64,000 nucleotides of DNA, from positions 35,700,501-35,764,500 of the forward strand of contig CP142452.1 of the NCBI GenBank assembly GCA_038049695.1, given 5' to 3'. The notes under the pieces are model-generated. The model was not told where the DNA came from. It searched no databases and worked only from the letters and a program-made list of their open reading frames with translations. Below, in pieces: positions 12,934-64,000 of this stretch. Position 1 is the stretch's first letter. Every line of letters begins with the position of its first letter. A program made the position numbers and the translations under genes. Source of the DNA: Cinnamomum chago (Eukaryota > Streptophyta > Magnoliopsida > Laurales > Lauraceae).

Positions 12934-13004
12934 GGGGGCAACAAAAGAAAAACACTCACTAGAATTCTAACTCTAGGTGATAAAACCAAAACAAGAGCAA
13001 CCTT

Positions 13005-13016
13005 TCTCTGATACCA
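13005..13016 (-). other. Copia primer-binding site (initiator tRNA-Met type)
   Basis: On the minus strand TGGTATCAGAG starts two bases inside the 5' LTR end at 13019. This is the usual complement of the 3' end of plant initiator tRNA-Met. Confidence 0.9.
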
Positions 13017-13018
13017 AT

Positions 13019-25825: not shown

Positions 25826-26470
25826 CACATGAAGTTTCAGAGCATTCCGACATCATTTGGTCTAATTCACTCCTCCGGCAACCAAACAGGCGCTCCTGGC
25901 GGTGGTGGTGTCAAAGACACTAAAACTTCAATCTGAGCCTACAGATGGTCTCAAAATACCTCCAAAAGGCTCCACGTCAAATTTCATGTCATTCCGGCAA
26001 CGTTTGACCCGACTTTAACACTTCGAAAGAAAATCAAGCCTCTCGACGGCGAGAACGACCGGGACCATTACTCATCAAACGGAGCACATGGACGGCTTCA
26101 ACATGCTTCCAAAGGGCTGCACGTCAAATTTTAGGTCGTTTCAACAACGTTTGACCCTACTTTGACGCTCCGAAAGAAAATCAAGCCTCTCGGCGGCGGA
26201 GCACCTCGGGACCATGACATCCAAATCGGAGCTAATGGATCATCTCAAAATGACTCCAATAGGCTCCCTGTCAAATTTCAAGTCAATCGGACATCAGTTG
26301 ACGGCACATCAAAGCGCGACATCTTCCTCGCGGTAAAATCAAGTCTAGCAGCGACGGGACTCCAAACGGCTTCAAAACTCAAACAAAAGCCCATGGTTGG
26401 TCCTATCTACTGCTCAGGATGCCTCACGTCAAATTTTAGGTCATTCTGACATCGTTTGACCTAGTTCGAC
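25826..26470 (+). repeat. ~150-bp internal repeats in LTR A (U3)
   Basis: Units begin near 25826, 25976, 26130, 26270 and 26430 with CaCGTCAAATTTyAgGTCattc, followed by CAaCGTTTGAC. The two best continue with cgaaagaaaatcaagcctct. In the right LTR (57786-58540) the array has the same type of units plus an extra, rearranged one. Confidence 0.7.
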
Positions 26471-32161: not shown

Positions 32162-34377
32162 TGTAAAGTCCTAGGGATCCGAACCCTAGAGGGGGGGTGA
32201 ATAGGGTGAGCTTCATTTATGACCAATTTAGACCAATTTTAACTTCTTTAAAACAAACTAGTCACATGTGATGATTTATCATACAAGATGTGGAAGCTAC
32301 CAAAAGAATCACCACAAAGCAATCACCATCACACAAGTATTTATAGTGGTTCGGCCTCAATGCCTACGTCCACTACCGGCTTGTGATCCAACACCCCACC
32401 GGATTTCCGTTATTTATGCTTTTCAATAGGCTAAGCAATAACCTTTACAATATGCTTTCCAAGGCTAAGCAATAACCTTTACATTGATGTTTTTCAAGGC
32501 TTAACATCAACCTATACACTATGCTTTTATAGGCTAAGCAATAACCTCTTCAACCACAAGGTTGGTTATCTCTCTAATTTAGTGTCTTTAATACACTTGA
32601 TGGAGATTCAATTAAGCTCATTACAATGCCTCTTAATTAGGCGGATATGGAAGTGAAAAACTAATACACACTCACACTATGAATGCAAAGATGAAAGTAC
32701 ATGAAGTGTGTGTGTGTGGTCCTCAATCATTTTGAAAATGAAAGCTCATAAATGTATGCCTAAGGCTTTTGAAAGTTTTAGCTCAAAAACATTTATGATT
32801 GAGGAAGTAATGCAAGTCACATGTTAAAAGTAACAACTTGTTAATGATGTCAAAGATACACAAGTTGTATGAAATGAATTAGCTCTAAACATGTGGTGCA
32901 TAGGGATGTCAATCAAATCAACAATGAAGCTCAAAGCATAAAAATAGATTTGATTGAAAATAGGGGACAAATCATATGTAATTATAAATACAACTTGAAT
33001 ATGATATACCTATCAAAGTAAGGCAAGTTGTGAAACTTTAAAACAATAATACACATATGATTTGTAAAGATGTTGAATCCAAAACATAAGATACATTTGA
33101 AAGAGATTTTCTTATGATGGAAAAACAACAACCAAAGATTCAACCAAGTATATGGATCATGTTACATCTAATTTCAAAGATGTTTCCATTAACATGATCT
33201 ACTTAGATTTACCAAGGATAAAGTACTACTTGGGTTGAATCAATGGTGATGCATCCAAAACAATAGATCAATTCAAAATATAAAACATGCTAAGGATACA
33301 ACACATCATAGTTTATCATGTTACTAAAGATTTACCAATGATAAAACAAAACATGAAAATATATGATTTGTAAAGAAGTTGAGTCCAAAACATAAGATAG
33401 TTTTGAAAGTGATTTTCTTATGATGGAAAACAACAACCAAAGATTCAACCAAGTATATGGATCATGTTACATATAATTTCAAAGGTTCTTTCATTAACAT
33501 GATCTACTTAGATTTACCAATTCAAGTACTACTTGGATTGAATCATATGGTGTTGTATCCAAAACAATAAATCAACTCAAAACATAAAACATGTTAAGGA
33601 CACAACACAAACATAGTTTAACATGCTAGAAATGATTTACCAAAAATAAAACAAAGCATGAAAACATATGATTAAGGAAAGTAAAGCCTACTTGGAGATT
33701 TAACTTCATTAATCCAAGCTTTAGCTTTCCTAATGCTCCCCTTCATCCTTTGGTTCTTTTCCCTTGAATATGCCTCAAAACCTCTCAAGAAGGGCCTTAA
33801 AATTTCCAACTTTTGGCAAAGGAAAGAACTCATATATATAGCAAAAAGTGCCCAACGGCTAGTCCTCGGTCGACCTGCAAAGAGGTCTCGGTCGACCGGG
33901 ATCACACAACGGTCGGATTTCTGACTGTTGGTGCGCCAGGCCATTTCTGCCTTGCAGTGTTCCCGGTCGACCGGGACCTCTGCGCCGGTCGACCGGTGAC
34001 ACTGCTGGGGCCCCAAAAACCAACTTTTGCATGTTAACAAAGTTTTTCTTGGTGGAACTTTGGGCCATTTAATCAAGCTTAAAAACATGTTTTAAAACAT
34101 TCTAAGGGTTTTAAAACATGGAACATAAAAAGCCTAAAACATTTTGAAAGATTTAAAACTCATAGGCTAGCTTGATTTTCTAAAACTCTTTTCAAATCAA
34201 ATGCATCCAAGACTTAAAAACAAATCATGCATAAATCAAAACTTTTACAACTCTTAAAAACAATGCATGTTTAAAACAAGATTTCAAGATTTCTTAAATC
34301 AATGCATATGTGTGTAAATCAAATGATGCTAGAATGATAATGCATCCATCAAATTGCAATCTACAAAATCCCTAACA
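32162..34377 (-). repeat. Solo LTR B1 (copia, Sirevirus-like)
   Basis: 2216 bp from tgtaaagtcc to ccctaaca on the plus strand with a perfect 5-bp TSD. There is no primer-binding site, coding region or second LTR, so this is a solo LTR left by recombination. Its ends and the block tttatagtggttcggcc are shared with the copia LTR at 6090, so the parent was a related copia on the minus strand. It holds a GGTCGACC array (33860-34004) and a TATATATA at 33833-33840 on the minus strand. The 32162-34377 span has no gene. Confidence 0.9.
33860..34004. repeat. Palindrome array with four GGTCGACC sites in B1
   Basis: Sites at 33868-33875, 33890-33897, 33965-33972 and 33987-33994. The 50-bp unit is 33955-34004, from CAGTGT to ACACTG. 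The outer pair is introduced by caacggctagtcctc, as in the copia LTR. Confidence 0.9.
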
Positions 34378-38593: not shown

Positions 38594-41500
38594 TGTAAGA
38601 CCCCGACCCGAGGGAACCCGAAGTCGTGTGTTAGTGCTAAGCTTGATTAGTGATTTTGGCTAAGTTGGGCTTGGAATAGCTTCTGTGTTAGTTTTGGGCA
38701 ACTTTGAATGCTTTGATAACTAGTGGGGCCCTTTGGGGCTTCCCCTTCTGACTTGGCATTTACTTAGAGGATTTTTCGGAATCTTTGGGAATCGCGTTCT
38801 TATCCCATTTCAATTTAGTGATCTCTACAACTTTCATGTTGATCCCGCTTTCATTTGAGGCCCCGATACCCGATTTACAAGCCCTAAGGGGCAAAACAAT
38901 CCTTTTACATTAAACATGTACCAAAAACTTGATATCCCCGAAACCCGCGAAACATATACTTTTTAGAAACTAGATATTTCGACGATCATTTCTTCCTGCT
39001 TCGTCAAATTCATCCGAGATCCCGAAAGAGGTGATTTCAGCCAAACAAGTTCCTTTAGTTGTGGGACCCAACTCCATTTGTTAACAAAGGGAAACCCACT
39101 CTTCATCTCATTTCATTCTTCATTGTTCCAGCACAAACCAGCAACCTAGGGTTTCTCTTACTTTTCTCTTCTTCTTCTTGCTCTCTCCATCTCCAATCCA
39201 CACTAATCTTGCACCAACATCGAAATGGAGATCGCCATCCTCTGCCTCATCTTGCAAGCTTCCTTTTGATACCTTTTGTAGAGAAATCCATCAACTTTGA
39301 GACTTCCTTTGAGCTAGCTCTTCTCATTTGAAGGTCATCCAAGTAAGTAATCTTCTTCATCTCCTAGATTAGTATTCCTCTAGGCCTTGAGAAGCTTCAT
39401 TTGTATTATTAAAAGTTCTATCCTTTTCAATCTTTGTTTGACCCATTTTAGGGTTTGTTTGTGGGGTTTTTTTTATTGTAGCTTGGAATTGAGCTTAAGA
39501 GGTGATTAGAAGCTTGGTACTGCTAGCTTGGACTTGAGGCAAGTGAATGACTAGGTGTTTTGAGTTTTAAATGGTTTGGTGAAACATTAATGGATTTTCA
39601 TGCTTTTATTGATTTTCATTGTTGAAATAAATGCTCTTGATGCATCTTGCTAGCTTCATTTAATGCATTGGAAACATGGATTTATAGTCTTTATTTCTCT
39701 AGTCTTGTGTGGTTTTATATGTGTTGGAAGGAGGGAAAAGAGGAGGACCAAGGCCACTGCAGAACAGAACCTGGGTTCTGTTCCGCAGTGTCCCCGGTCG
39801 ACCTGGCTGGGGACTGGTCGACCTGGGACACACTGACAAAAAAATACTTTGGCCATTTTAGTTACAACTCTCGGTCGACCTGGCCCATGGCCAGTCGACC
39901 GAGTACACAGGGACCAGGTCGACCTGGCCAACTGGGAAATCCCTGCTGGAATGAATTTTTACCCTGATTTCGAATGGTCTTAGGTGGGACCTTGGCTACC
40001 CTGTTTGGACTCATTGGACTATATATGAGGATGTCTTGAGCCGACACTCCTCATGGTTGGTCCGGTTGCATTGGAGTCCAATCCATTTCAATCTTAAACG
40101 GTATGGGACGACGCGATATCCTCCTTATATCTTTACGTGAAGTCTATTTCTTTGGATATCGCGAATCCTATCTCTTTCGGTGACTGAGTAGGTTGCTCGA
40201 TGCTTCCGGATTAACATCATACTTAGGATGGACTGTTTATAGTCTTGACTTTTCTATCGTAGCATCTAGTACTATCCATAAGCTCATTTTAAGTTTTGAA
40301 AATCGTAAAGTGCATAAGGAGCCCGTAATGTCTTCAAACTCAAGGAGTACCAAGTCTTTATTACAATCGACATACGGGACCCCTATTCACCTTAAATAAA
40401 TCTTGAAACCAATATTTTCCCGAAATTGTAATAGTTCATTTTATTCCTTCATTTCCAAGATTTACGTTACATGATTTGTTTTCCCTAAAGCATGATAGTT
40501 ACACTGGTAACATTTACTTGTCCCGAAGTGTATTGCCCGACATGAAATGAAAGTTATGCATTTGAGTACTCTTGCCCCGTTCATTTATTTACTTGAACTT
40601 GATGTATTTTGCATATGTCTCGATTTGCTATTTGACCTATAAGCCGGCATCACTAAGCTTGGATAACCTTGTCGGTTTGATCCACTGACTTGGAGATCCC
40701 TCTCCCGTCCCGCCAGCTGCAGTTTGGATCCCGATGCCCGGTTTATTACCGTGGTCCCGTCCCGATACCCGGTTCGCTACCGTGGTCCCGTCCCGTATAC
40801 TTATATTGTATATATGCTTTGCGTTAAATCTCCTCACCTTGTGTGACTGAGACCAACGTCCCGTTATACTTTTGTGACTTTGGTGATAGAGGACTTAGCT
40901 TTATGTGATTGCCATTTTGTCAGTTCCCGATTCCTTGGATACCTCACATGTTTTATCTTGTTTATTTGTTTTCTAGTAAATGATTTATCTTCTTTATGAG
41001 AGTTCTTGCTTAAATAGATTTCTATGCTTTTCAAGATATTTCATTATTGTATGTTGTTGTACCTTTTCACTCTCTTGCCAGACCGTCGTGTCTGACCCAT
41101 TTGCTTTGGTACTCAGGTCCCGTTGCCGGTTACCTTGAGGAGGAGCCGGAGGAGGAGGTAGGTGAACCACAGCCCTTAGTTGAGTGGCGTGCTGACGATG
41201 TCATGTAGACATCTGGTTGCTACGAGAGGCGTGACATTTTGGGGAAAACTATTTAACCATTCTTATGGGTTACTGTTTTGTTATATTGGCCTTTGTTGGC
41301 CTCAAATTTTGGGAATGTAACTAAATGATCTTTTGTTAAACTTTAACTAACTTTTGGGAACATGCTAATGATCATTGCTCATTCTGATACAATATTTCAT
41401 ACTTATGTTATTGCCTTCATGACTAGGGATAGTCTGACTATTTGATTTGCTACATGCTTCCACACTTAAAAGAAATATTCATTTATGGTCGTGATATCCT

Positions 41501-41634
41501 CACCGCGGACACCTGTGGGAAATTAAATGAATGTATGGTATTATTAAACTATTGTGGTACATCATCATCATTACATTACATTCATTGGTCCCGATCCCGG
41601 ATTAGTCCTTTGGGCCCGGTCTGGGGTCGTGACA
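38594..41634 (+). repeat. Solo LTR C (Ty3/gypsy, Tekay/Del-like)
   Basis: 3041 bp from TGTAAGACCCCGACCC to GGGGTCGTGACA with a 5-bp TSD. The ends resemble those of element E (TGTTAGACCCCGAC...GGGGTCGCGACA), so the parent was a related Tekay-like gypsy. No coding region, primer-binding site or second LTR is present. It holds a GGTCGACC array at 39786-39930, a TATATATG at 40020-40027, and a roughly 32-bp tandem duplication near 40730-40800 (cccggt...accgtggtcccgtcccg). Its backbone aligns with the partial LTR F at 61822. No gene is seen in this 3-kb stretch. Confidence 0.9.
39786..39930. repeat. Palindrome array with four GGTCGACC sites in gypsy LTR C
   Basis: Sites at 39796-39803, 39816-39823, 39873-39880 and 39917-39924. 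The 50-bp unit 39786-39835 begins CAGTGT and ends ACACTG, with the same length and plan as in the copia LTRs. Bases 39785-39803 match 33954-33972 of B1 at 18 of 19 positions. Confidence 0.9.
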
Positions 41635-41651: not shown

Positions 41652-42023
41652 TGTTAGGAATTTTGTAGATTGCAATTTGATAGATGCACTATCATTCTAG
41701 CTTCATTTGATTTACACACATATGCATTGATTTAAGAATTCTTGAAATCTTGTTTTAAACATGCATTGTTTTTAAGAGTTGTAAAAGTTTCAATTTATGC
41801 ATGATTTGCTTTTAAAACTTGGATGCATTTGTTTTTTAAAAGAGTTTTTAGAAATCAAGCTAGCCTTTGGTTTTAAACTTTTGAATCATTTTAGGCTTTT
41901 TATGGTTCATGTTTTAAAACCCTTAGAATGATTTAAAACATGTTTTTAAGCTTGATTATATGGCCCAAAAAGTTCCACAAAGAAAATCTTTGAAATTTGC
42001 AAAGTTGGAATTTTTTGCCCCAG

Positions 42024-42165
42024 TAGTGTGGCCGGTCGACCGGCCCAGGGGTCCCGGTCGACCGGGAACACTGCAGGCAGAAAGTGGCCCTGATGCACCA
42101 ACGGTCAGAAATATGACCGTTGTGTGTTACCGGTCGACCGAGACCTGTTTCCAGGTCGACCGAGG
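42024..42165. repeat. Palindrome array with four GGTCGACC sites in B2
   Basis: Sites at 42034-42041, 42055-42062, 42132-42139 and 42153-42160. The 50-bp unit ends ACACTG at 42073. The inverted repeat CGGTCAgaaataTGACCG lies between the pairs. Confidence 0.9.
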
Positions 42166-42188
42166 ACTAGCCGTTGGGCACTTTTTGC

Positions 42189-42196
42189 TATAAATA
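42189..42196 (+). promoter_or_regulatory. Putative TATA box of B2
   Basis: TATAAATA about 29 bp downstream of the last GGTCGACC, the same spacing and orientation relative to the array as in B1 and the copia LTR. Confidence 0.5.
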
Positions 42197-43606
42197 TGAG
42201 TTCTTTCCTTTGCCAAAAGTAGGGAATTTTAAGGCCCTCCTTGAGGGGTTTTGAGGCAAATAGAAGGGAAAAGAACTAAGGGATGAAGGGGATCATTAGA
42301 AAAGCTAAAGCTTGGATTAATGAAGTTAAATCTCCAAGTAGGCTCTACTTTCCTTAATCATATGTTTTCATGCTTTGTTTTGTTTTTGGTAAATCATTTG
42401 TAGCATGATAAACTATGTTGTGTTGTATCCTAAACATGTTTTATGTTTTGAATTGATTTATTGTTTTGGATACATCACCATTGATTCAATCCAAGTAGTA
42501 CTTCATCTTTGGTAAATCTAAGTAGATCATGTTAAGGGAAGCATCTTTGAAATTAGATGTAACATGATCCATATACTTGGTTGAATCTTTGGTTGTTGTT
42601 TTCCATCATAAGAAAATCACTTTCAAAACTATCTTATGTTTTGGATTCAACTTCTTTACAAATCATATGTTTTCATGTTTTGTTTTATCTTTGATAAATC
42701 TTTAGTAGCATGTTAACCTATGATGTGTTGTATCCTTAGCATGTTTTATATTTTGAATTGATCTATTGTTTTGGATGCATCACCATTGGTTCAATCCAAG
42801 TAGTACTTTATTTGGTAAATCTAAGTAGATCATGTTAATGAAAGAATCTTTGAAATTATATGTAACATCATTCATATACTTGGTTGAATCTTTGGGTGTT
42901 TTTTTTCATCATAAGAAAGTCTCTTTCAAAATATATCTTATGTTGTGGATTCAACATCTTTACAAATCATATGTGAATTTGTTTTAAAGTTTTACAACTT
43001 GCTTTGCATTGATTGGTATATCATATTCAAGTTGTATTTATAATTACATATGATTTGTCCCCTTGTTTCAATCAAATCTATTTTTATGTTTTATGAGCTA
43101 CATTGTTGATTTGATTGACATCCCTATGCATCACATGTTTAGAGCTAATTAATTTAATACAACTTGTGAATCTTTGACATCATTAACAAGTTGTTACTTT
43201 TTAACATGTGACTTGCATTCTATCCTCAATCATAAATGTTTTTATGAGCTAAAACTTTCAAAAGCCTTAGGCATACATTTATGAGCTTTCATTTTCAAAA
43301 TGATTGAGGACATCACACACACACATCATGTACTTTCATCTTTGCATTCATAGTGTGAGTGTGTATTAGATTTTCATTTTCATATCCGCCTATTTTAGAG
43401 GCAAATGTAATGAGCTAAATAGAATCTCCATCAAGTGTATTATAGACACTAACTTAGTGAGATAACCAACCTTGTGGTTGAAGAGGTTATTGCTTAGCCT
43501 ATAAAAGCATAGTGTATAGGTTGATGTTGAGCCTTGAAAAACATCATTGTAAAGGTTATTGCTAAGCCTTGAAAATCATATTGTAAAGGTCATTGCTTAG
43601 CCTATT

Positions 43607-46458
43607 TGTTAGACCCCGACCCAGACCAGTTCGATTAGTGTGCGATTAGTATGTGTTTAGTCTTAAATGGGTTTAGTTGTGGTTGGGTTAGAAGTGATTA
43701 GCTTTAGTCCTGGACATAGCTTTGGGAATTTTGAGAACGTTTAGTATTGGTTAGACACACTCAAGAAGGCTTGAGTGCACGTGTAAGCTTGGGAAGATCG
43801 TATCGTTTTCCGTGTGAGTGTGGTTTTGATTTCATTTGAATGATCTTTTTATGTGTTACAACTTTCGTATTAAGCCCATTCATGTTTGAAGCCCAAAAAC
43901 CCAAGTTTTGGCCCAAAGAGGGTAAAATTGTCTTTCTTGCACAAATCTGGACACAATTTTCGAGATCTCAAAACCATGTCAAAAATATACTTTTTGGAAA
44001 CTAGATATTTCGACGATCATTTTATCCTTCTTCGTCGAAGTCATCCGAGGCCCACAAGACCATGTTTTAGTCACTTCAACTTCAAGCCAAATGGGGCCCA
44101 TGAGTCATCACTTAATCCCCTTTCCCCTCCCTTTTCATTCATTTCCCAATCTCTGCAACTTTTGAGTCTAGGGCAAGAGAGAAAACCTCTTTTCTCCTTC
44201 ATCTTCCTCACTTGGTTTGATCTAGCTAGAGAGCTCCAAAGGAAATTCTAAGACTACCATTTTCTTCATCTCCTTGCAAGCTCTCCATTGATACAAGTTT
44301 CTTGAGTTTTCAAGTTGGGCAAGAGCTCCTTTTTCTTCCCTCTCTCTTGTTTGACCTTCTCTAGGTAAGAGCTTCAACCCATATTTTTCATGGAGTCATT
44401 TTAGTTTCTTAAGATCATGTTTTTCATGTTTTCAAACCCTATTGGGAAAATGGGTTCCTTGTTTCCATTTTGAGTGAGTTTTGTGTGTTTTCTTGTTTTT
44501 GCTTGTAGTGTGAGATTAGCTTGTGTGAAGAGCTTGGAGGAGAGTGTTTAGCATTTGGGCAAGGCAAGTAATCTCTATAGGACCATCGTGCATGTGTATT
44601 TTAAGCTACATTGTTGTTTTTGGAAATTTTGCATACGAAAATGTTTATAAGCTTCATGATCATGTTTTCCTTGGATTGGATGTTTGGGATTGTGAGAAAT
44701 GTGTATTTTATCCCTTGGAGAGCATGGAGGCTCAGGGAGTGCAGGTGGAATGAAAAACAAGAAGAAGAGAAGAAGGAAATATGGAAAATCTGCACTAAAC
44801 TGTACTTCCCGTGCAGTTTCGGTCAGCTGGCGGTTAGCCGTAATTCCCATTTCGGCTAACCGCGAGCCAACCGAAATCAGCGGTCCCTTTTCCAGTAGCT
44901 GACTTTTGCTTCAGGGTCCTGCGGTCAGCCCTGCGGTTAGCTCACAGCTAGCCACCAGTTCCCTTGCGGCTAACCGTAAGCCAACCGAAATTATTACGGT
45001 TCCTTTTCCAGAGAGCGGCATCAGATCTGGGTTTTCAACGGTCAGCCCTACGGTCAGCTTACGGCTAGCCGCCAGTTTCTAGTTCGGCTAGCCGCCAGCT
45101 GACCGCAAGCTGACCGAAATTGACCAATTCCTAGTTTTGAAGAAGTTTTGCAAGAGTGAAAACTAGAACATGTTAAGTGACCTTTAGCTTGATATTGTGT
45201 ACTCGAAACAAGAGATGTCTTGAACTTCCGGGACACCAACTCTATTCCAAATTCCAACATTTGGGCTTCGAATACACAAAGATCAATCAAAGGTCCTTGC
45301 TTGTGCTTGATAGGCCTTGTGTTCGTGCTTTGGTTTTTGATATGATGCCTATCATCGTGAACTAGTTTTGAAGTGTTAGTACAAGCTTGTTTTGAAGTTT
45401 TGTTAAGAAAAAGGGGATCACTTCCTAAGTGTGTTTTGCATAAATATTATGCCTCGTGCTAGTCGTGCTCGTCGTGTTGTGATAAGTGATTTCCCCCTTT
45501 TTATCTCGACGTGTTTGATCGTGCTTCGCGTGTTTTGTGCATTCATGAATTAAGTAAACACCACTGAGCTTAGACTGCCCTTTCGGTTTGATCCACTGTC
45601 TGGGGGTCTTTAAACATGTGGACTGTCTGCAGACTGGTCGTGTATTTATTACACATCGTGCGTGTCCGGTTCCGCGGCCGGAATTCCCGTCTTTGTGGGA
45701 AATCGTGTCGTGCTTATATTATGTATATCGTGCTTGTCGTGCGTGCTTGCTCTTTTCATTATATAAATGATAGAGAAAGGATGGGCTCTTTGTGGATTGT
45801 AACTTTTCATGACATATTTAGTACTCATGCTAGTTTGTTTTGATACTTCGGCTATTGTGACAGTTCAAATCAAGTATTTGATTTCAAGTGCTTTTCCAAA
45901 GTATTATTGTCATGTTCATGCCTATATTGATTACCTGCCAAACCGTCGTGTTTGACCCTTGCTTGTTGGTGCCCAGGTGCAGGAGACGTTGCCTTTGAGG
46001 AGGAGCGTCAGGAGGAGGCTTGTGAGCCAACTCCCGTGAGAGAGTGGCAGCCCGACGATGTCATCTAGATGTCGGTCTGGTTCTTGAGTTTCGTCACATT
46101 TTGTCTTAGGGTCCTTTTGTTTATGTTGGAGTTGTGTATTGGCCTCTCTTGGGAATTGTAACAAAACTTAATTTACTTTCTTGTTAGACTTGTAACTTGA
46201 ATAATGTTGGGAATGCCTTGTTAACTTATTCCTTTGATACCTTGTCTTGTATATTATTGTGATAGCACCTAAATATTTTACTGGTGCTTATCTAGTTGTG
46301 TTTTGCTACACGCTTCCGCAAATCGTGTACGTGTGAGCCAGATTCCGCGTGTCTTTAGGAATCCTCACCGCGGGAACCTGTGGGAAAATAATGAACCATT
46401 GAGCATAAACATCATCACCAACGTCGCGGGCCCGGGGATCCGTTCTGGGGTCGCGACA
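43607..46458 (+). repeat. E 5' LTR
   Basis: 2852 bp, TGTTAGACCCCGAC to GGGGTCGCGACA. A three-block palindrome array lies at 44815-45120. Short open frames inside it recur identically in the 3' LTR and show no protein-like features. TATA-like atataaat lies at 45761-45768, of uncertain significance. Confidence 0.95.
44815..45120. repeat. Palindrome array (CGGCTAGCCG / CGGCTAACCG type) in E 5' LTR
   Basis: Three blocks of about 75-90 bp start at gcggtcag or cggtcag (44818, 44930, 45049). Each mixes CGGTTAGC, CGGCTAACCG, CGGCTAGCCG and CAGCTGACCG, and the first two end with ttccag. The 3' LTR array is 52520-52820 and lacks 11 bp of the last block. Confidence 0.85.
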
Positions 46459-46462
46459 GGAC

Positions 46463-46478
46463 TGGTATCAGAGCGAGA
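46463..46478 (+). other. E primer-binding site (initiator tRNA-Met type)
   Basis: TGGTATCAGAGCGAGA, four bases after the 5' LTR end. This is the standard site for Tekay-like chromoviruses. Confidence 0.9.
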
Positions 46479-46619
46479 CATGTTTCAGGCACTTAAAAGA
46501 AACTAGAAAGGTCTTAGGAACGTGGCGAGGATTCGTGAGTTCGATAGACTCGTTGGTATAGGACCTTAGAAACCCTTGTACCATGTTTATTGTGTGCTAA
46601 CTACTTGTCTTACAGCAAT

Positions 46620-49600
46620 ATGCCTCCGAGAAAAGCTCCAAATCATCATGCTTCAGGCAGTAATCATAATGAGTCAGATGCATCTGAGACACCTACAGCC
46701 ACACAGTTTCAGGAACTTATGCAAGCCATGATAGCACAGCAAAGGCAGGCTAATGAGAACCAAGCAAGGTTTCAAGAGCAGTTGGCTAAGAAGGATGATG
46801 AGATGGCACAAGTTCAAAGGCAGTTATTGGAAGTCCTTCAGAACAGGAATGTAGCAACACCCGCAGGTCCACAGATTGTTATTCAGAATAGGGATCCTGA
46901 CCCTAATGCTCTATTTGAGAAGTTTAGGAAGAGAGCACCCAAAGAATTTTCGGGCAATGAGGACCCACTAGTGGCAGATGACTGGCTAGTCAATACGGAG
47001 AAGATCTTTGATGTCTTCATGTGCACGGGTATACAGAAGGTCAACCTCACAGCTTCATTATTTTATGGGCTTGCAGACCGGTGGTGGCAAACAGTCAAGG
47101 ACCCATATGCAGTGATGGCAGATGAAGAAGCATGGGCAGCTTTCAAGATACAGTTTCAAGACAAGTACATTCCCTCTCATGTCAAGAGGCAAAAGGCTAT
47201 TGAGTTTCAGCAGCTCAAGCAAGGTAGCATGACAGTGTTGGATTATGTCACCAAATTTGAAAGATTGGCTAGATATGCCACCGAGCTGATTGACACGGAA
47301 AGGAAGAAGATAACCAAGGTTTTGGAAGGGTTGAATCCGATTATCATGAGAGATGTCATAGGTGTAGTACCTCCAGCTACATATGATGAGGCAGTCAAGC
47401 GGGCATGCACCTTTGAAGATATTAATAATATGATTGTTCAGGACAGGAAACAACAGTTTCAGCAGCAGAACCAGAGACAACAACAGGGCAAGAAGCCAAG
47501 GCAAGAGCAAGGCCATGTGAGGCAGGGTTGTGGACATTGTGGCAAGAACCATGAGACCCACGAATGTCGTAAGGCCATGGGCGCCTGTTTCAAGTGTGGG
47601 GCTATGAACCATTCAATCAAGGATTGCCCACTACTCTAGAATCAGGGGAACAGGAACCAGCAACAGAGACAAGTAGCTCCTCAGAATCAAGCACCAGTTC
47701 AGAATCAGATGAGACCACCTCAGCAGCAGCAGCAGGCTAGGCCACCAGTCCAGAATCAGAATGCTCGTCCTCCACAGCAGAACAGACAAGGCCAGGGAAG
47801 GCAGAACCAAGTACCGAACAGACTACAGATGCATGGACGTTTGTACTATCTCAACCGTGCAGATGCTGAAGCTGCAGGAGACGTGGTAGAAGGTAAACTT
47901 CTTGTTTGTGGGGTAGAAGCCCATATTTTGTTTGACCCTGGATCCACGCATTCATTTTCATCCCCTAGTTTTGTTAAGTTGATTGATGCACCATGTAGTG
48001 AGTTGGATTACATTTTAGTAGTGACCACTCCAGTAGGGAAACAAGTTGTGTGTAGAAACCATTACCCTAGTTGTACAGTGTTGTTAGGAGATGTGAACTT
48101 ACCGGCCAACCTCATAGTTTTAGACATGCATGATTTTGATGTTATTTTAGGCATGGATTGGTTAGAAGCATATCATGCCACCATGGATTGTTTTAGTAAG
48201 ACTATCACATTTAGATTCCAAGGACCACAGGCAGAGTTGATATTTCAGGGGAACAGGAGAAAATCTCAGGCAGGGTTTATTTCAGTGTTGAAGGCAAGCA
48301 GATTAGTTCAGAGTGGGTGCCAAGCATTTATTGCGTTTATCACGGAGGATAAACAGTCCCAAGGGGTGGAGGATATCCCCATTGTGTGTGAATTTTCGGA
48401 CGTTTTTCCAGAAGAAATCCCGGGTTTACCACCAATTAGGGAAGTTGAGTTCACAATTGAGCTTCTTCCAGGGACAGCTCCGATCTCGATTGCACCATAC
48501 AGGATGGCTCCAGCAGAAATGGGTGAGCTAAAGCTCCAATTGCAAGATTTGTTGAGCAAAGGTTTTATTAGGCCAAGTGTTTCACCGTGGGGAGCACCGG
48601 TGTTGTTTGTGAAGAAGAAGGATGGAAGCTTGAGAATGTGCATTGACTACAGGAAGTTGAACCATGTGACAGTGAAGAACAAGTACCCTTTGCCAAGGAT
48701 AGACGAATTGTTTGACCAATTGCAAGGAGCAGCCTATTTTTCTAAGATAGACTTGAGGTCAGGGTACCATCAGTTGAGAGTTAGAGACTCAGATGTTCAG
48801 AAAACAGCCTTTAGAACAAGATATGGGCACTATGAGTTCTTAGTGATGCCCTTTGGCTTGACGAATGCACCAGCAGTCTTTATGGCTTTGATGAACAAGG
48901 TCTTTGCACCTTATTTGGATCATTCCACAGTAGTATTTATTGATGATGTCCTGGTATATTCTAAGAGTAAGAAGGAACATGAGGAACATTTGAGGACAGC
49001 GTTGCAGCTCTTGAGGGACAACCAGTTATATGCGAAACTCAGTAAGTGCGAATTCTGGTTAGAGCAAGTTGCTTTTCTAGGCCACATCATATCCAGAGAA
49101 GGTTTAGCAGTTGATCCAGCCAAGATAGAGGCAGTTGTTAGTTGGGTGAGGCCAAGCAGTGTGACAGAGATTAGAAGCTTCTTGGGGTTAGCAGGCTACT
49201 ACAGAAGATTTGTCCAAGGTTTTTCGTCCATCGCAGCCCCTTTGACGAAATTGACTAGGAAGAATGTCCCATTTGTGTGGACCGATCAGTGTGAAACCAG
49301 TTTCCAAGAGTTGAAGGGAAGGTTAACCACAGCCCCGATTCTTACATTACCCTCGAGCAACGGCGGATTTATTGTTTATACAGACGCTTCGAATGTGGGA
49401 CTGGGTTGTGTATTGATGCAAGATGGCAAGGTGATTGCTTATGGCTCGAGGCAGCTGAAGGACCATGAGAAGAATTATGCGACTCACGACTTGGAGTTGG
49501 CAGCAGTTGTTTTCGCATTGAAGATGTGGAGACACTATCTCTATGGAGAGAAATTTGAGGTCCATTCAGATCACAGAAGTTTACAGTATTTGTTCTCGCA

Positions 49601-51275
49601 GAAGGATTTGAACATGAGGCAGAGAAGGTGGATGGAGTATATCAAAGATTATGACTTTCCAATTAAGTATCATCCAGGCAAAGTGAATGTGGTAGCAGAC
49701 GCCTTGAGCAGGAAATCAGTGGTTATGGCTAATTTGAGAGGAATGGGTGTCTTACAGCAGTTTGAAGAGTTGGGTGTAGAAGTGCAAACCCTCAGATTGG
49801 GTGCGATGTTAGCGAACATGACAATTTCAGAACCTACATTCATCCAGAAGATTAAGGAAAATCAGTTACAAGACCCAGACTTGGCCAAGATAGTAGATGT
49901 TATTGCAGAACGCCCCGATTTCAAGATGGTGAATGGGATATTGTATTTCCGTGACCGGTTGTGTGTGCCAAATGTGGATGATTTGAAGGATGAGATAATG
50001 AATGAAGCTCACAGCACGAGGTATTCTATGCATCCGGGTAGCACGAAGATGTACCACAATTTGAAGAATCGATTTTGGTGGAACAACATGAAGAGAGAGA
50101 TAGCAGCTTTTGTGTCTCGTTGTCTAACTTGTCAGTTGATCAAGGCAGAGCATCAGAAGCCTCCAGGTTTGTTACAGCCTTTGGAGATTCCGGAGTGGAA
50201 ATGGGAGCACATTACCATGGATTTCGTTTCCGGTTTGCCTAATACTAAGAAGGGAAATAATGCAATTTGGATCATTGTAGATCGCCTGACAAAGTCTGCT
50301 CACTTCATTCCGATGAAGACAGGGAACATGATGCACATGGCACCACTTGCGAAGTTATTTGTTGATGAGATTGTTAGTAAGCATGGTCAGCCCGTCTCCA
50401 TTACTTCAGATAGAGACAGTAGATTTGTTTCAAAGTTTTGGAAAACTCTTCATGAGTCGATGGGTACCAAGCTCCAGTTCAGCACAGCTTATCATCCTTA
50501 GACCGATGGTCAGTCAGAAAGGACGATACAGACTCTCGAAGACATGTTGCGTGCTTGTGTATTGGATTTCAAGATTCAGTGGGATGAGTGCTTACCTCTT
50601 TGTGAATTTGCTTATAACAATAGTTACCACTCGAGCATTGGTATGGCACCTTTCGAGGCACTTTATGGTAGAAGATGCAGAACTCCGGTTTGCTGGGAAG
50701 AAGTCGGTGAACGTAGTTTCCATGGACCGACGATAGTTGGAGAGACAAGTGAAAAGGTCAAGTTGATTCAGGAAAGGTTGAAGATTGCCCGAAGTAGGCA
50801 GAAGAGTTATGCAGACACTCGCAGAAGAGAATTGCAGTTTCAAGTGGGTGACAAGGTGTTTTTGAAAGTCTCACCAACTAGGGGGACATTGAGATTTGGA
50901 CAGAAGGGCAAATTGTCTAGAAGGTTTATTGGTCCGTATGAGATTTTGAGCAAGATTGGAGATGTAGCTTATAGACTTGCGTTACCGCCGGAATTCTCCG
51001 GGGTACACAATGTTTTTCACGTTTCGATGCCCAAGAAGTATGTCTCTAGTCCTGCACACATTCTACAACATGAGCCTTTAGAGATTCGAGAAGATGCCTC
51101 GTATGTGGAAAGACCGATCAAGATCATTGATACCAAAGAGCAAGAATTGAGAAACCGAACTATTCATTGGGTCAAGGTACTTTGGGAAAATCACGAGCCA
51201 GAGGAAGCCACCTGGGAATTGAGAGAGCAAGTGCAAAGGAAGTATCCACAGCTTTTACCTGAGGTAAATGTTTGA
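46620..51275 (+). pseudogene. gag-pol: E gag-pol with C-terminal chromodomain, two in-frame TAG codons
   Basis: I chose ATG 46620 (MPPRKAP) over the in-frame ATG at 46590 because basic MPPR starts are usual in Tekay gag. The frame has 1551 codons with stops only at codons 340 (47637) and 1294 (50499). Domains: gag with a Gln-rich coiled-coil start (about 30-80) and capsid-like core; two CCHC knuckles, about 304 and 323 (CFKCGAMNHSIKDC); protease FDPGSTHSF near 440; reverse transcriptase with CIDYRKLN and FIDDVLVYS near 773; RNase [11 protein letters not shown] near 920; integrase zinc finger near 1131-1170 (CLTCQ), core residues in TMDF (about 1200), TSDRDSRF (about 1262) and DGQSERT (about 1299); chromodomain about 1490-1540 (VKVLWENHEPEEATWE). 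The second stop falls in the highly conserved YHPxTDGQ motif where Gln is expected. Chromodomains are thought to guide integration to heterochromatin. Confidence 0.93.
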
Positions 51276-51297
51276 TTTATTTGGTGGACCAAATATC

Positions 51298-51312
51298 CAA
51301 AGGGGTGGAGGA
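51298..51312 (+). other. E polypurine tract
   Basis: caaaggggtggagga lies directly before the 3' LTR TG at 51313. Confidence 0.85.
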
Positions 51313-54163
51313 TGTTAGACCCCGAACCAGACCAGTTCGATTAGTGTGCGATTAGTATGTGTTTAGTCTTAAATGGGTTTAGTTGTGGTTGGGTTAGAAG
51401 TGATTAGCTTTAGTCCTGGACATAGCTTTGGGAATTTTGAGAACGTTTAGTATTGGTTAGACACACTCAAGAAGGCTTGAGTGCACGTGTAAGCTTGGGA
51501 AGATCGTATCGTTTTCCGTGTGAGTGTGATTTTGATTTCATTTGAATGATCTTTTTATGTGTTACAACTTTCGTATTAAGCCCATTCATGTTTGAAGCCC
51601 AAAAACCCAAGTTTTGGCCCAAAGAGGGTAAAATTGTATTTCTTGCACAAATCTGGACACAATTTTCGAGATCTCAAAACCATGTCAAAAATATACTTTT
51701 TGGAAACTAGATATTTCGACGATCATTTTATCCTTCTTCATCGAAGTCATCCGAGGCCCACAAGACCATGTTTTAGTCACTTCAACTTCAAGCCAAATGG
51801 GGCCCATGAGTCATCACTTAATCCCCTTTCCCCTCCCTTTTCATTCATTTCCCAATCTCTGCAACTTTTGAGTCTAGGGCAAGAGAGAAAACCTCTTTTC
51901 TCCTTCATCTTCCTCACTTGGTTTGATCTAGCTAGAGAGCTCCAAAGGAAATTCTAAGACTACCATTTTCTTCATCTCCTTGCAAGCTCTCCATTGATAC
52001 AAGTTTCTTGAGTTTTCAAGTTGGGCAAGAGCTCCTTTTTCTTCCCTCTCTCTTGTTTGACCTTCTCTAGGTAAGAGCTTCAACCCATATTTTTCATGGA
52101 GTCATTTTAGTTTCTTAAGATCATGTTTTTCATGTTTTCAAACCCTATTGGGAAAATGGGTTCCTTGTTTCCATTTTGAGTGAGTTTTGTGTGTTTTCTT
52201 GTTTTTGCTTGTAGTGTGAGATTAGCTTGTGTGAAGAGCTTGGAGGAGAGTGTTTAGCATTTGGGCAAGGCAAGTAATCTCTATAGGACCATCGTGCATG
52301 TGTATTTTAAGCTACATTGTTGTTTTTGGAAATTTTGCATACGAAAATGTTTATAAGCTTCATGATCATGTTTTCCTTGGATTGGATGTTTGGGATTGTG
52401 AGAAATGTGTATTTTATCCCTTGGAGAGCATGGAGGCTCAGGGAGTGCAGGTGGAATGAAAAACAAGAAGAAGAGAAGAAGGAAATATGGAAAATCTGCA
52501 CTAAACTGTACTTCCCGTGCAGTTTCGGTCAGCTGGCGGTTAGCCGTAATTCCCATTTCGGCTAACCGCGAGCCAACCGAAATCAGCGGTCCCTTTTCCA
52601 GTAGCTGACTTTTGCTTCAGGGTCCTGCGGTCAGCCCTGCGGTTAGCTCACGGCTAGCCGCCAGTTCCCTTGCGGCTAACCGTAAGCCAACCGAAATTAT
52701 TACGGTTCCTTTTCCAGAGAGCGGCATCAGATCTGGGTTTTCAGCGGTCAGCCCTACGGTCAGCTTACGGCTAGCCGCCAGTTTCTAGTTCGGCTAGCCG
52801 CCAGCTGACCGAAATTGACCAATTCCTAGTTTTGAAGAAGTTTTGCAAGAGTGAAAACTAGAACATGTTAAGTGACCTTTAGCTTGATATTGTGTACTCG
52901 AAACTCGAGATGTCTTGAACTTCCGGGACACCAACTCTATTCCAAATTCCAACATTTGGGCTTCGAATACACAAAGATCAATCAAAGGTCCTTGCTTGTG
53001 CTTGATAGGCCTTGTGCTCGTGCTTTGGTTTTTGATATGATGCCTATCATCGTGAACTAGTTTTGAAGTGTTAGTACAAGCTTGTTTTGAAGTTTTGTTA
53101 AGAAAAAGGGGATCACTTCCTAAGTGTGTTTTGCATAAATATTATGCCTCGTGCTAGTCGTGCTCGTCGTGTTGTGATAAGTGATTTCCCCCTTTTTATC
53201 TCGACGTGTTTGATCGTGCTTCGCGTGTTTTGTGCATTCATGAATTAAGTAAACACCACTGAGCTTAGACTGCCCTTTCGGTTTGATCCACTGTCTGGGG
53301 GTCTTTAAACATGTGGACTGTCTGCAGACTGGTCGTGTATTTATTACACATCGTGCGTGTCCGGTTCCGCGGCCGGAATTCCCGTCTTTGTGGGAAATCG
53401 TGTCGTGCTTATATTATGTATATCGTGCTTGTCGTGCGTGCTTGCTCTTTTCATTATATAAATGATAGAGAAAGGATGGGCTCTTTGTGGATTGTAACTT
53501 TTCATGATATATTTAGTACTCATGCTAGTTTGTTTTGATACTTCGGCTATTGTGACAGTTCAAATCAAGTATTTGATTTCAAATGCTTTTCCAAAGTATT
53601 ATTGTCATGTTCATGCCTATATTGATTACCTGCCAAACCGTCGTGTTTGACCCTTGCTTGTTGGTGCCCAGGTGCAGGAGATGTTGCCTTTGAGGAGGAG
53701 CGTCAGGAGGAGGCTTGTGAGCCAACTCCCGTGAGAGAGTGGCAGCCCGACGATGTCATCTAGATGTCGGTCTGGTTCTTGAGTTTCATCACATTTTGTC
53801 TTAGGGTCCTTTTGTTTATGTTGGAGTTGTGTATTGGCCTCTGTTGGCCTCTCTTGGGAATTGTAACAAAACTTAATTTACTTTCTTGTTAGACTTGTAA
53901 CTTGAATAATGTTGGGAATGCCTTGTTAACTTATTCCTTTGATACTTTGTCTTGTATATTATTGTGATAGCACCTAAATATTTTACTGGTGCTTATCTAG
54001 TTGTGTTTTGCTACACGCTTCCGCAAATCGTGTACGTGTGAGCCAGATTCCGCGTGTCTTTGGGAATCCTCACCGCGGGAACCTGTGGGAAAATAATGAA
54101 CCATTGAGCATAAACATCATCACCAACGTCGCGGGCCCGGGGATCCGTTCTGGGGTCGCGACA
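51313..54163 (+). repeat. E 3' LTR
   Basis: 2851 bp with the same ends as the 5' LTR. It carries an 11-bp deletion in the palindrome array and a 10-bp duplication (ggcctctgtt) relative to the 5' LTR. Confidence 0.95.
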
Positions 54164-54434
54164 CTATTGAAAAGCATAAATAGTGGAAATCCGGTGGGGT
54201 GTTGGTTCACAAGCCGGTAGTGGATGTAGGCATTGAGGCCGAACCACTATAAATCCTTGTGTGATGGTGATTGCTTTGTGGTGATTCTTTTGTTAGCTTC
54301 CGCATCTTGTATGATTAATCATCACATGTGACTAGTTTGTTTTAAAGAAGTTATAATTTGTTATAATTGGTCATAAATGAAGCTCACCCTATTAACCCCC
54401 CTCTAGGGTTCGGATCCCTAGGACTTTCACTTGT

Positions 54435-57783: not shown

Positions 57784-60270
57784 CAACATCATTTGACCCA
57801 ACTTCACTCCTCCAACAGCTGAGCAGGCGCTCCCGGCGGCGGTGAAGCCAGAGAACCTGACGCATAAAATAAAGTACACAGCTGGGCCCAAGATGCAACC
57901 AGGAGGCTCTACATCAAGTTTCAGGCCATTGCGACTTCACTCCTCCGGCAGCCAAACAAGCGCTCCTGGCATCGGCAGCGTCGAAGACACTAAAACTTCA
58001 ATATGAGCCTACGGATGGTCTCAAAATACCTTCAAAAGGCTCCACGTCAAATTTCAGGTCATTCCGGCAACGTTTGACCCGACTTTGACGCTTCAAAAGA
58101 AAATCAAGCCTCTCAGCGGCGAGAACCACCGGGACCATTACTCATCAAACGGAGCACACAGACGGCTTCAACACGCTTCCAAAGGGTTGCACGTCAAATT
58201 TCAGGTCGTTCTGACAACATTTGACCCTACTTTGACGCTCCGAAAGAAAATCAAGCCTCTCGGCGGCGGAGCACCCCGGGACCATGACATCCAAATTGGA
58301 GCTAATGGATCATCTCAAAATGACTTCAATAGGCTCCCTGTCAAATTTCAAGTCAATCGGACATCGGTTGACCGCACATCAAAGCGCGACATCTTCCTCG
58401 CGGCAAAATCAAGCCTAGCAGCGACGGGACTCTAAAAGGCTTCAAAACTCAAACAAAAGCCCATGGTTGCTCCTATCTATTGCTCAGGAGGCCTCACGTC
58501 AAATTTCAGGTCATTCCGACATCGTTTGACCTAGTTTCGACTCTTGACAAAAATCGGCAACACTGCACGACAAAGTTTTCGGCTTTTCCAAAAAATAGGA
58601 AACTTTGTGCTTTGAATTGCACGACTTTGCGTCGGGTTTTCTTTAGGAGAATCAAGCCAAAAAATGAGGACAAATGTCAAGAGAAAAACAGGAGAAAAAA
58701 AGAAACAAAAAGCTCAAAAAACGGCCAATAAAGCGGTGACCAAAAGGGAGAAATTCCCCCATGGTCGCCGGCGACCCTGGAAATCCGGGTCGCCGGATTT
58801 CTGCCGAAAGACCTGTTTTCCATCCTTTCTCGCGTTTCGAGAGTTCCAACCCCTGTGATTTCCTGAAAATCTGATTTTTGATCCTCGGAAATGACTGATC
58901 TTTGTCTACATCTCGGATCTGCCGTCAAGAGCATGAAATTGTCATTGATCGCTCCAAGATCACCAACCGGCCGACTAAAAAAGTATGCTTTCTGTCCGAC
59001 CGATCGAGAAATCGACAAGACAAATGGTACCGGCCTGCTGTTAGGAATCTATGACTGAAGTTGCATGATCATCCGACATTGATCAACGTGAAGATCCATC
59101 ATCGATCATCGCAAGAAGAATTCTAAAAGACGCGGCAAGGCTCGTGACTAGTCAAATCCCCGGCAACCACAAAATGTTGTTAATTGACCCAACTAAATGC
59201 GGTCATTAACTCATTATTTTGGACAGCCCAATCAGATTCAAGGAAATGGGAGTTACAAGTCAAAGCCATCATGGCATTAAATCTTTGAAACTCCTCTCAT
59301 CATGGAGATTAAAGGCGATTAAAAGCCCATCATTCTTCATCGGCCAATCAGATTCAAGGAAAAAGGAGTTACAAAATCAAGAAATAAAAACTTGTAACTC
59401 CTCCCATCGTGAAGCTTTAAAGCCATCAATGCTCATAAACCCTCCTAATGGCTACCAAAGGCCTATAAATAGGAGATCATTTTAAGAAGAACGGATCAAG
59501 AAATACATCCAGAAAAATCGGAAAGAATTAGTAAGGAAGATCATCCAGAAGCCCTGCTACTCTGAAGAAACTCTGCCGCAACAAATACCAAAAAGTGATT
59601 GAAGTCCCTTGGGGGGCACTCCTCCCCAAGAAAAAAGCCTTCTCTTCTCCTATTCAACATTGCCAAGACGCGGCTCTTCAGCCCGTCTCTTTGTTTTTTA
59701 TTGGGTATAGGACCTTCCCTTGGTCCTTATCCTCTAAAAAACTGAAGTCCAAGCCAAGCCAAAGAATCAAAGCATCAAGCGTTCTCATCTGAAGGACGAT
59801 GGCGAAGTCCATACATGACTTGCGACCGTCGATCTGAACGAGACCCCACAGCCTCCTGAGAAGTCAGATTCTCTTTCTTGCTTTTCTATTGTACTTTGTA
59901 TTTTCTTTAAGAGACAAAAAAATCACAATTCTTGTCTTTCATTTTGATGAGATTTGTAAATCGCCTTTTACGGCAAACAAAATTGCCTTTCACGGCAAGC
60001 AAAATCGCATCTAACGGCATCCAAAAAAAAACTGTCTCTTTTCTTAAATATATGTGCAATGGAAAGTGAGAAAAAGGTTGTTTTCCTTTCTACTCGTGAA
60101 GGTGGATCTCCGGATCACCATTTCTAAATTCCAAGTAGAATAGAAAATCTGGCATACCCGTACAAAAATGTTGATACCCTTTTTCTCCCCCTTTCTTCCC
60201 TTCTTTCGGCCTTTTCTTGGTGACCTCGGGGACGGATGGGAGAGGAAAGGAAGGAAAATCGGGTCCATCA
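57784..60270 (+). repeat. Element A2 3' LTR, 5' end deleted and internally rearranged
   Basis: It begins inside the U3 repeats (equivalent to about 25849 of the middle LTR) at the fusion point. An extra partial copy of the gcgctcctggc...cgg block is present (57820-57990), so the repeat array has been rearranged. It has a TATA box at 59464-59471 and ends ccatca at 60270. Confidence 0.85.
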
Positions 60271-62318: not shown

Positions 62319-63155
62319 GAGAACCCATCTTCATTCTTCTCCATTTCCACCACAAACACACAAACCTAGGGTTTTTTCTCATTCCTCTCCTCCTTGCTCG
62401 TTCATCACCCAATCCACTACCAAACCTTTGCTAATGGAGTAGTGTTTGTCATTATCTCATCCCTCACTTTTAGAGCTCTCTCTTGATACCATTTGTGGAG
62501 GAAACCTCCCATTCCAAGATCTTCATTGAGCTACTCTTCCCCATTTAGAGATTCTACAAGTAAGTAATCCTTTCCATCTTCTAGATTTGTGTTCTTATGG
62601 CCCTAGAGGAGCTCCATCTCTATTATTGGAAGTTTTCTATTTCTATTCCTTGTTTTAACCCATTTAGGGTTTGTTTTTGGGGGTTTTTGTGTGTTTCTTT
62701 GGATTTTATCTTGGATGTGTGATTAATTCTTGTTTTTGGCTAAGCTTGGACCTAAGGCAAGTGGATGAAATGATATTTGAAGATTATTTGGTTTTATGAG
62801 AAATGTGTTAATTTTGTTGTTACTATTCATACTCTTTTTTATTTTCATGACTTTGAAATAAATGCTCATTAGAGAGTTTTTCTAACTCATCTATTGTTAT
62901 GGAAATGTGATTGATAGTTTGTCATTTATCTCTTGTTCATAGCTCAAAGAACTTTTGTGATTGTGAGTATCTTCTTCTATCTTGTGTTTGAATGTGGATG
63001 GAAAGGAAGTGAAAGGAGAAATTGTAGAAGTGTTGAATGATGAATTGGAGGAGCGTTTAGCTCATTATATTGTAGGAAATGAACAGGAAGTTAGGAGAAT
63101 GGTTTTGAGGAGGAAAAGGGCTCAAATTTGAACACAGTAGGAGTTTCCCGCACCT

Positions 63156-63460
63156 AGCGGTCAGCTGGCGGTCACATGTCGGCTAGCCGCTTGGTAACTG
63201 GCCGCTAACCGCCAGCTAACTGAACTGTCGCGGTTACAATTCTAGAGAACATTCTTTTCTTCCTGAAGAAGCGGTCAGCTTCACGGTTAGCCAGTGGCTA
63301 ACCACCGAACTCATTGGCGGGTAACAGCCAGCTAGCCGAACCCATTTCGGTTACATTTCCAGTGTTTTGTATCCAAATTGGCAAATCCGCGGTTAGCCTC
63401 GTGGTTAGCCTACGGCTAACCGCTGAGCCCATTGGCGGCTAACCGCCATGTGGCCAAAAT
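63156..63460. repeat. Palindrome array (CGGCTAACCG type) in LTR F
   Basis: Three blocks start near 63160, 63271 and 63388. They mix CGGTCAGC, CGGCTAGCCGC, CGGTTAGCC and GGCTAACCGCC; the first two end in tctag or tccag, as the E array blocks end in ttccag. Confidence 0.8.
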
Positions 63461-64000
63461 TACCCACGAAATTTGAATTGAAGAGAAATGAAAGGGGTTT
63501 CCATCCCAATCATTTGTAAACCCTTTTAGAAAATGATAGGACTGTTCACCTGGAGATATGTATGGAGCCCGTTTGAGAAAGAAACCACGTCATAAGGATT
63601 CATTGAGGTCTTGATTTCCCAAGGTGTGTAAGGAGCCTAGAATGTCTTCAAACTCAAAGAGTACCAAGTCAATATCGAAATCGACATACAGGACCCCTAT
63701 TCACCTTGAACTAGTTTTGAACCCCAATACTTGTCCCGTAATTTCGAAAGTTCAATTGTGTTTTCAGTTATCACGAATTGTTACATGTGTTCCCGTAAAT
63801 TTATGAATTATGATTTATCATTCCCGACAGTATTGAAATTGTATTTTAGCATTTTGCTAGCCCGGTTATACATTGCCCGAATTGAAAGGATACTTGTGCC
63901 TTGACCACCCCCGTCCCGCCAGGTTATATACTTGTACTTGATGTCTTTTATACATGTCTTGATTTTTGTTATTTGGCCTATGAGTCAGCATTACTAAGCC

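Follow-up and report, generated by a model that had tools for sequence, protein, structure and literature searches.

The closest described counterparts of the sequence analysed here are the repeated motif (RM) boxes of Sireviruses, palindromic motifs with a CGG-CCG signature that lie in the LTRs of these elements shortly upstream of the TATA box (Bousios et al. 2010, PMC2829016). The accessible parts of that paper term the boxes Sirevirus specific by comparison with other Ty1/copia elements. In maize, a different Sirevirus palindrome, CACCGGACNNNGTCCGGTG, forms strongly folding clusters in LTR regulatory regions (PMC10760457, PMC5311732), and since it is also the top motif of Helitron structured regions, sharing beyond Copia has already been reported (PMC10760457). 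Two other systems are instructive in part. The anti-silencing VANC proteins and the Arabidopsis VANDAL elements illustrate how a sequence-specific factor acts on mobile elements via fast-evolving noncoding sequence, although VANDALs are DNA transposons (PMC5735166, PMC10398659). Template switching among Triticeae LTR retrotransposons supplies a route by which LTR pieces can move between elements, but a copia-gypsy LTR cassette is not among the content reported in the accessible parts of that work (PMC1950507).

The window considered here is the whole 64,000-nucleotide stretch of the Cinnamomum chago genome that was analysed (C2:35,700,501-35,764,500; genome of 1.06 Gb in 14 contigs), and its content is nested plant LTR retrotransposons. 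A preliminary description of it had reported a palindromic module common to copia and gypsy LTRs and had considered it undescribed. That last point does not stand for the copia half, which is the known Sirevirus "repeated motif": several CGG-CCG palindromes per LTR precede the TATA box, and a box of sequence CGGTCGACCG is listed for a Vitis Sirevirus (PMC2829016). What differs from the RM boxes as set out in the accessible parts of that paper is the presence of the module in gypsy LTRs as well and its CAGTGT/ACACTG arms at a fixed gap. Relative to the maize palindrome, both the core and the partner superfamily are different, and sharing with gypsy elements is not among the cases reported in the accessible parts of the sources (PMC10760457, PMC5311732). 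What is new is that gypsy LTRs carry palindromic boxes whose arms and spacing are those of the Sirevirus boxes; no report of gypsy LTRs with such boxes, or of CAGTG arms, was found in the open-access literature searched, as far as its accessible parts go.

Elements of the window and geometry of the unit

Element A (6090 to 14628, minus strand, AGCAC on both sides) has LTRs at 6090 to 7704 and 13019 to 14628 that are 99% identical, enclosing a single open gag-pol frame (8110 to 12966, 1,618 codons) with copia-type domains (RVT_2, copia gag). Its 5' LTR-PBS junction reads CA-ATTGG-TATCAGAG, one base off the junction looked for, CA / ATTGG / TATCAGAGC (CAATTGGTATCAGAG is followed by A, not C), the 407-bp linker before the 3' LTR contains four AGGGGGAG polypurine tracts, and the element has an AT/TG end. 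On sequence grounds A is a Sirevirus, and the rest of the Sirevirus group is counted as such by LTR homology to A. This homology includes two solo LTRs, B1 (32162 to 34377, minus strand, ACCAA on both sides) and B2 (41652 to 54429, plus strand, CTTGT on both sides), the latter split into two parts (41652 to 43606 and 54164 to 54429) by the gypsy element T. Element T (43607 to 54163, plus strand) has LTRs at 43607 to 46458 and 51313 to 54163, gag at 46548, and pol at 47640; its reading frame is interrupted by in-frame stops, and its integrase end (50502) gives a weak chromodomain match (PF00385, E = 1.6e-4, 21.9 bits against a curated cut-off of 25.1). The remaining array-bearing LTR, C (38594 to 41634, plus strand), is a solo gypsy LTR of 3,041 bp with TG..CA ends and the target-site duplication ACTTC on both sides. 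Its lineage is one that we take to be the Tekay type, with T serving as the Tekay yardstick.

The window also contains other repeats. B1 carries a direct tandem duplication of about 305 bp (33053 to 33673, 88% alike) that is also present in B2 (42356 to 42974), and 147-bp tandem repeats at 25949 to 26293 and 58019 to 58373 belong to two copies of a host gypsy element that also bears AAATCGCC-type minisatellites.

All five 50-bp units of the preliminary description were recovered. They lie in the left (3') LTR of A (7287 to 7336, minus strand, with a second core pair at 7189 and 7211), the right (5') LTR of A (14217 to 14266, minus strand, where one core reads GGTCGATC), B1 (33955 to 34004, minus strand, second core pair at 33868 and 33890), B2 (42024 to 42073, plus strand, second core pair at 42132 and 42154, followed by a TATA-like box), and C (39786 to 39835, plus strand, cores at 39796 and 39816). 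The array of C has a second part (39873 to 39924, plus strand) with cores at 39873 and 39917 and AGTCGACC at 39893. The unit reads CAGTGT-NNYC-GGTCGACC, 11 to 17 bp, GGTCGACC-GRNN-ACACTG; some units have a single core and span about 28 bp, and arrays comprise one to several units. Allowing up to one mismatch, GGTCGACC occurs 34 times in the window, compared with a mean of 9.7 and a maximum of 17 in dinucleotide shuffles, none of 100 of which reached 34.

The regularities claimed for these units needed some adjustment. B2 reads TAGTG rather than CAGTG at one end, and in A, B1, and B2 just one of the two units per LTR carries the CAGTG/CACTG arms. Four cores per LTR is an approximation as well: in the right LTR of A only three of the four cores are exact, the other being mismatched, and C adds a fifth, mismatched core to its four exact ones. 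The identity of 18 of 19 bases between B1 (33954 to 33972) and C (39785 to 39803) is correct but represents the best stretch; ungapped, the whole units agree at 28 of 50 positions, since core spacing is 22 bp in the copia LTRs but 20 bp in C.

Placement relative to the promoter was as described for the copia LTRs, where an array about 30 bp upstream of a TATA-like box had been claimed: 27 to 28 bp separate the end of the last core from the box in each of A, B1, and B2, with boxes placed from sequence and distances computed from coordinates. The TATA-like box of C (40019 to 40029, plus strand) lies about 95 bp downstream of its array, and the majority sequence derived from 19 C-family segments has it too. 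Elsewhere among the gypsy LTRs, the T2, V, and D TATA-like boxes sit well upstream, either of the array itself or of the corresponding position, and group U has no TATA-like box near the array.

Two gypsy LTRs of the window have another palindrome class where C has GGTCGACC. In the T LTR (44780 to 45150) and in LTR D at the end of the window, the 5' part of which is 71% alike to C, the motifs are CGGCTAGCCG and GCGGTTAGC/GCTAACCGC; in D, the palindrome-rich stretch (63120 to 63480, plus strand) occupies the position of the C array, with CGGCTAGCCG / GCGGTTAGC instead. A box reported for a Citrus Sirevirus has a core similar to these T and D palindromes (PMC2829016).

Extent and ownership of the arrays

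The observation is far larger than one locus. The pair GGTCGACC-N5-30-GGTCGACC occurs at 36,582 places genome-wide, against 30 for the reversed control. The arm and its 5-bp spacing belong to the unit, since CAGTG-N5-GGTCGACC occurs 28,638 times (5 reversed) and the same arm at 7 bp, CAGTG-N7-GGTCGACC, only 366 times (7 reversed). Two variant cores are found with the same arm, GGTTAACC at 1,013 places (control, 29) and the one-sided GGTTGACC at 1,151 (control, 9).

To assign arrays to elements, groups were defined from flank homology with the arrays masked. A first sample, made up of 20 stretches of 10 kb that contain most of the 50 listed core-pair places in the first 3 Mb of C1, together with four neighbours, gave 25 arrays outside the window, 8 of them in Sirevirus LTRs and 17 in gypsy LTRs of groups V, T2, and U; two of the 25 are second copies (the other LTR of the same element and a segmental duplicate). 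With the window included, there are 30 arrays with at least two exact cores: 12 Sirevirus, 9 V, 4 T2, 4 U, and 1 C. A second sample of 20 further arrays, taken from 28 uncovered places found by the arm search and including two with a single exact core (L050 and L060), added 7 Sirevirus, 7 V (one of them, L066, weakly assigned), and 6 T2; having been picked by arm, it was kept out of arm-position statistics. Every one of the 45 sampled arrays outside the window is therefore flanked by a Sirevirus or gypsy LTR group (L066 weakly), which is not what a generic satellite would give. Flanks of different groups matched in three cases: C and U are homologous, C and B2 physically overlap in the window, and a single V-T2 match falls within a neighbouring gypsy element. 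The flanks show no cross-superfamily homology apart from that overlap, in keeping with the earlier view that the two kinds of LTR are otherwise unalike.

Several assignments deserve comment. The L010 array was initially assigned to a second gypsy lineage because a gag-RT element adjoins it; that neighbour's LTR is about 0.76 kb long and ends before the array, which flank homology places in T2. Two more arrays near gypsy gag-RT sequence (L024 and L008) had no owning LTR pair within the 20 kb searched and are group V by flank homology. Assignment of group U to copia, suggested by a copia RT about 3.5 kb away, was ruled out by the U LTR ends and a TCTGA duplication. These two features, together with 258 to 291 bp of homology with C, are the only link of U to gypsy. 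Separately, L014 is a segmental duplicate of L017 and preserves the empty site (a single CAATG) of the T2 solo LTR in L017.

Ownership by gypsy elements is most fully documented for C, T2, and V. With the initial 1,147 bp of the C LTR as query, 40 matches were scored from 10,144 candidates, with 85 to 100% identity and spread over 11 contigs, including the window's own. Among 20 copies retrieved, 18 retain one or more exact cores at the position of the array, and the other 2 diverge from C there. On C7, two LTR 5' parts of this family, similarly oriented and separated by 8.0 kb, each carry an array (L040 and L041), and 1.4 kb of the sequence between them encodes pol that is 80% identical in amino acids to residues 159 to 588 of T pol. 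C is accordingly no chimera or assembly artefact, as had been considered, because a two-LTR copy of its family encloses gypsy pol. The corresponding T2 element has LTR 5' parts 7.2 kb apart, with sequence between them (L070) that is 78% identical in amino acids to T pol 218 to 549, and the array is present in L071, the one LTR of that element inspected. For V, the copy in L013 has a Retrotrans_gag/Ty3_capsid gag and a PBS at 1398 adjoining an LTR end; its V LTR, which was aligned except for its middle, starts near 6055 and contains the array at 5029 to 5155. The RM box thus does not hold as a Sirevirus-only feature, being found in C, T2, and V gypsy LTRs, and the claim that the module is common to copia and gypsy LTRs is sustained by these three families alongside the Sirevirus group.

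A structure of another kind lies at C2:42,104,833-42,224,799. This tandem array (G000), with a period of about 2,666 bp, contains in each repeat CAGTGTATACCAGGTCGACC, which is one degraded unit; the satellite seems to have captured it.

Likeness across superfamilies and signs of constraint

Among units not selected by arm, CAGTG stands at a gap of 5 bp in 14 of the 34 arms from Sireviruses and in 31 of the 106 from gypsy elements, and all other gaps within 30 bp together account for 1 Sirevirus and 9 gypsy occurrences. Group U has no exact arm (0 of 10), and 9 of 17 Sirevirus units lack any arm matching at 4 of 5 bases. The pooled arm consensus, with the arm-chosen sample included, is the same in both superfamilies: CAGTGT, one free base, CCC, and the core. 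Mean unit scores for Sirevirus against V, T2, and C are 19.8, 21.4, and 17.6, compared with 21.7 and 17.5 for V against T2 and C within gypsy, 24.4 within Sirevirus, and 22.1 within V. By these scores the unit is about as similar between superfamilies as between gypsy families. Most units (69 of 84) find their best match in their own group; for the other 15, the best own-group unit at another locus is equalled or outscored by one from the other superfamily.

Likeness in detail was assessed with shuffles. With cores and 10-bp arms held fixed, 485 cross-superfamily matches reach 40 bits, compared with at most 288 in 20 shuffles, and there are close individual pairs, 54 bp at 89% (L007/L059) and 44 bp at 95% (L057 and a V array at C1:1334279). 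The 14-bp interiors are shared across superfamilies above column shuffles (22 of 500 reach the observed value); at lengths 12 and 13, with just 2 and 1 distinct Sirevirus interiors, the test fails. Spacers and near flanks gave seven cross matches of at least 28 bits, whereas none of 20 shuffles gave more than two; leftover motif accounts for two of the seven, and the strongest of the others equals the best shuffle. The unit is thus shared, and its surroundings are at most weakly alike.

Further regularities concern the core and its spacing. Neighbouring cores no more than 130 bp apart gave 171 spacings, with related copies counted; 61 of these equal 20 or 22 bp, and 90 fall between 19 and 25 bp. 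Outside the core, dyad symmetry shows covariation at offsets 2 to 4 (z of 6.5, 4.1, and 3.7 over 226 distinct sites, values that related copies inflate); past offset 4 it is absent, and pairing at offset 7 is below that of shuffles (z of -5.3). Across 19 C-family segments, differences affect 16 of 408 cells at non-CpG core positions (3.9%), versus 637 of 8,449 (7.5%) elsewhere (Fisher P = 0.005), and CpG core positions show the same trend without significance (P = 0.08). The symmetric variant GGTTAACC is about 20 times as frequent as independent decay would predict, assuming that the other one-sided form is as common as GGTTGACC, and part of this excess can come from amplification of one lineage. 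In one V copy, a run of five GGTTAACC cores gives way to two GGTTGACC cores, and another V copy mixes cores. In L072, a T2 copy, the unit that comes after a GGTTAACC unit contains two direct, nonpalindromic GGTCAACC cores. L072 and the gypsy copy L026 (1900 to 2180) both combine GGTTAACC cores with the same arms.

Explanations for the shared unit

The same unit occurs in the LTRs of the Sirevirus (copia) group and of several otherwise unrelated gypsy families, which suggests that two unrelated retrotransposon groups are recognised by the same cellular machinery. Our preferred reading, to which we give a probability of roughly 0.4, is that the module is a cis-regulatory palindrome cassette of LTRs read by one dimeric trans-acting factor. 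This putative factor would recognise the unit as DNA, bind cores about two helical turns apart, and set LTR transcription, and LTRs would keep or acquire the unit because the factor is shared. It would more probably be encoded by the host than by an element, since unrelated elements share the address. It is possible that an element encodes it, as in the case of VANC proteins, whose bound motifs in VANDAL elements are nonpalindromic. RNA hairpins arising from the same symmetry would be a cost, a side effect inviting small-RNA silencing. This reading is supported by the core-pair excess, the fixed 5-bp arm, the 20/22-bp spacing, the symmetry, and the low divergence of the cores, as well as by the short distance (27 to 28 bp) from array to downstream TATA-like box in the LTRs of A, B1, and B2 and the likeness of the unit across superfamilies; a DNA address read by a dimeric factor would be the most economical account of them. 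Counting against it are the TATA-like boxes upstream of the array in T2 and V and their absence in U, unlike in Sireviruses; the lack of exact arms in U and the many armless Sirevirus units; and the end of symmetry at offset 4 and the direct GGTCAACC cores of one gypsy copy. Since the T and D gypsy LTRs use another palindrome, such a factor would not be needed by all elements of this kind. We are more doubtful about the fuller version of this idea, in which a common cis-regulatory address (28 to 50 bp, fixed arms) read by one factor moves or converges as a unit of its own, its core having been recoded symmetrically from TCGA to TTAA in some lineages, as in a recognition arms race.

Sharing could instead reflect descent, if units had moved between copia and gypsy elements, recently or recurrently, by template switching or gene conversion, with no common factor needed. 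The close cross-superfamily pairs, the excess of 40-bit matches, the 15 units matching the other superfamily equally well or better, the shared 14-bp interiors, and the spacer matches are what such exchange would leave; yet the top scores fall within the shuffle range once leftover motif is removed, the interior test fails at lengths 12 and 13, 69 of 84 units match best within their own group, and the LTR flanks do not match across superfamilies beyond physical overlap, so that we regard exchange as a rather unlikely explanation. Folding bears on another account, unlikely in our estimation, in which the unit is an RNA hairpin cassette kept or tolerated for transcript folding, for feeding or escaping small RNAs, or for RNA dimerisation or packaging. 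Hairpins do form in silico: all five two-core units fold better than each of 200 shuffles (z from -4.5 to -6.0: B1 -5.49, A -6.0, B2 -4.6, C -4.46, T2 -5.6), longer stretches give strong values too (147-nt array of B1, z of -10.82; C array, -5.9; a 106-nt V stretch, -7.3), and the palindrome regions of maize Sireviruses are small-RNA hotspots (PMC5311732, PMC10760457). Folding cannot separate a DNA function from an RNA function, because any strong palindrome folds in this way, and the dyad symmetry of single cores with complementary consensus arms already gives such folding. Covariation of the outer linkers is weaker than the local signal (z of 3.5 at offset 2 and 1.6 to 2.3 at offsets 1, 4, 5, 6, and 10), and in 4 of 18 C-family copies (L035, L038, L043, and L045) the place of two-core units is taken by one-core units. 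Furthermore, the array of A, B1, and B2 would be missing from the 5' end of the RNA because it is upstream of the TATA-like box.

Two other explanations fare worse. Pure convergence on a common palindrome under a CpG-rich, CGG-CCG-type constraint, with no shared factor, could draw on the fact that Sirevirus motifs of unrelated sequence share the CGG-CCG signature across plants (PMC2829016) and on the other CGG-CCG palindrome of T and D; generic composition does not yield CAGTGT arms at an exact 5-bp gap in both superfamilies, and we consider convergence of this kind very unlikely. Even harder to credit is that the arrays are copies of one satellite or nested mobile sequence inserted into LTRs. 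The 2,666-bp-period array on C2, at about 42.1 to 42.2 Mb, is the kind of structure that this would produce, but all 45 sampled arrays outside the window are in LTR groups with no clearly shared spacer, and array position is kept in 18 of the 20 C-family copies, the other two departing from C there. Exchange and hairpin silencing are the live rivals to a shared factor, and both could act together with it.

The sharing of a long unit by unrelated superfamilies would tie the motif more closely to the host genome than to the lineage of the element. If the shared-factor reading is true, a single factor would act on tens of thousands of LTR sites in two superfamilies, and the reader of the boxes would become testable. 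It would also follow that LTR promoters can exchange regulatory modules, or converge on them, between superfamilies.
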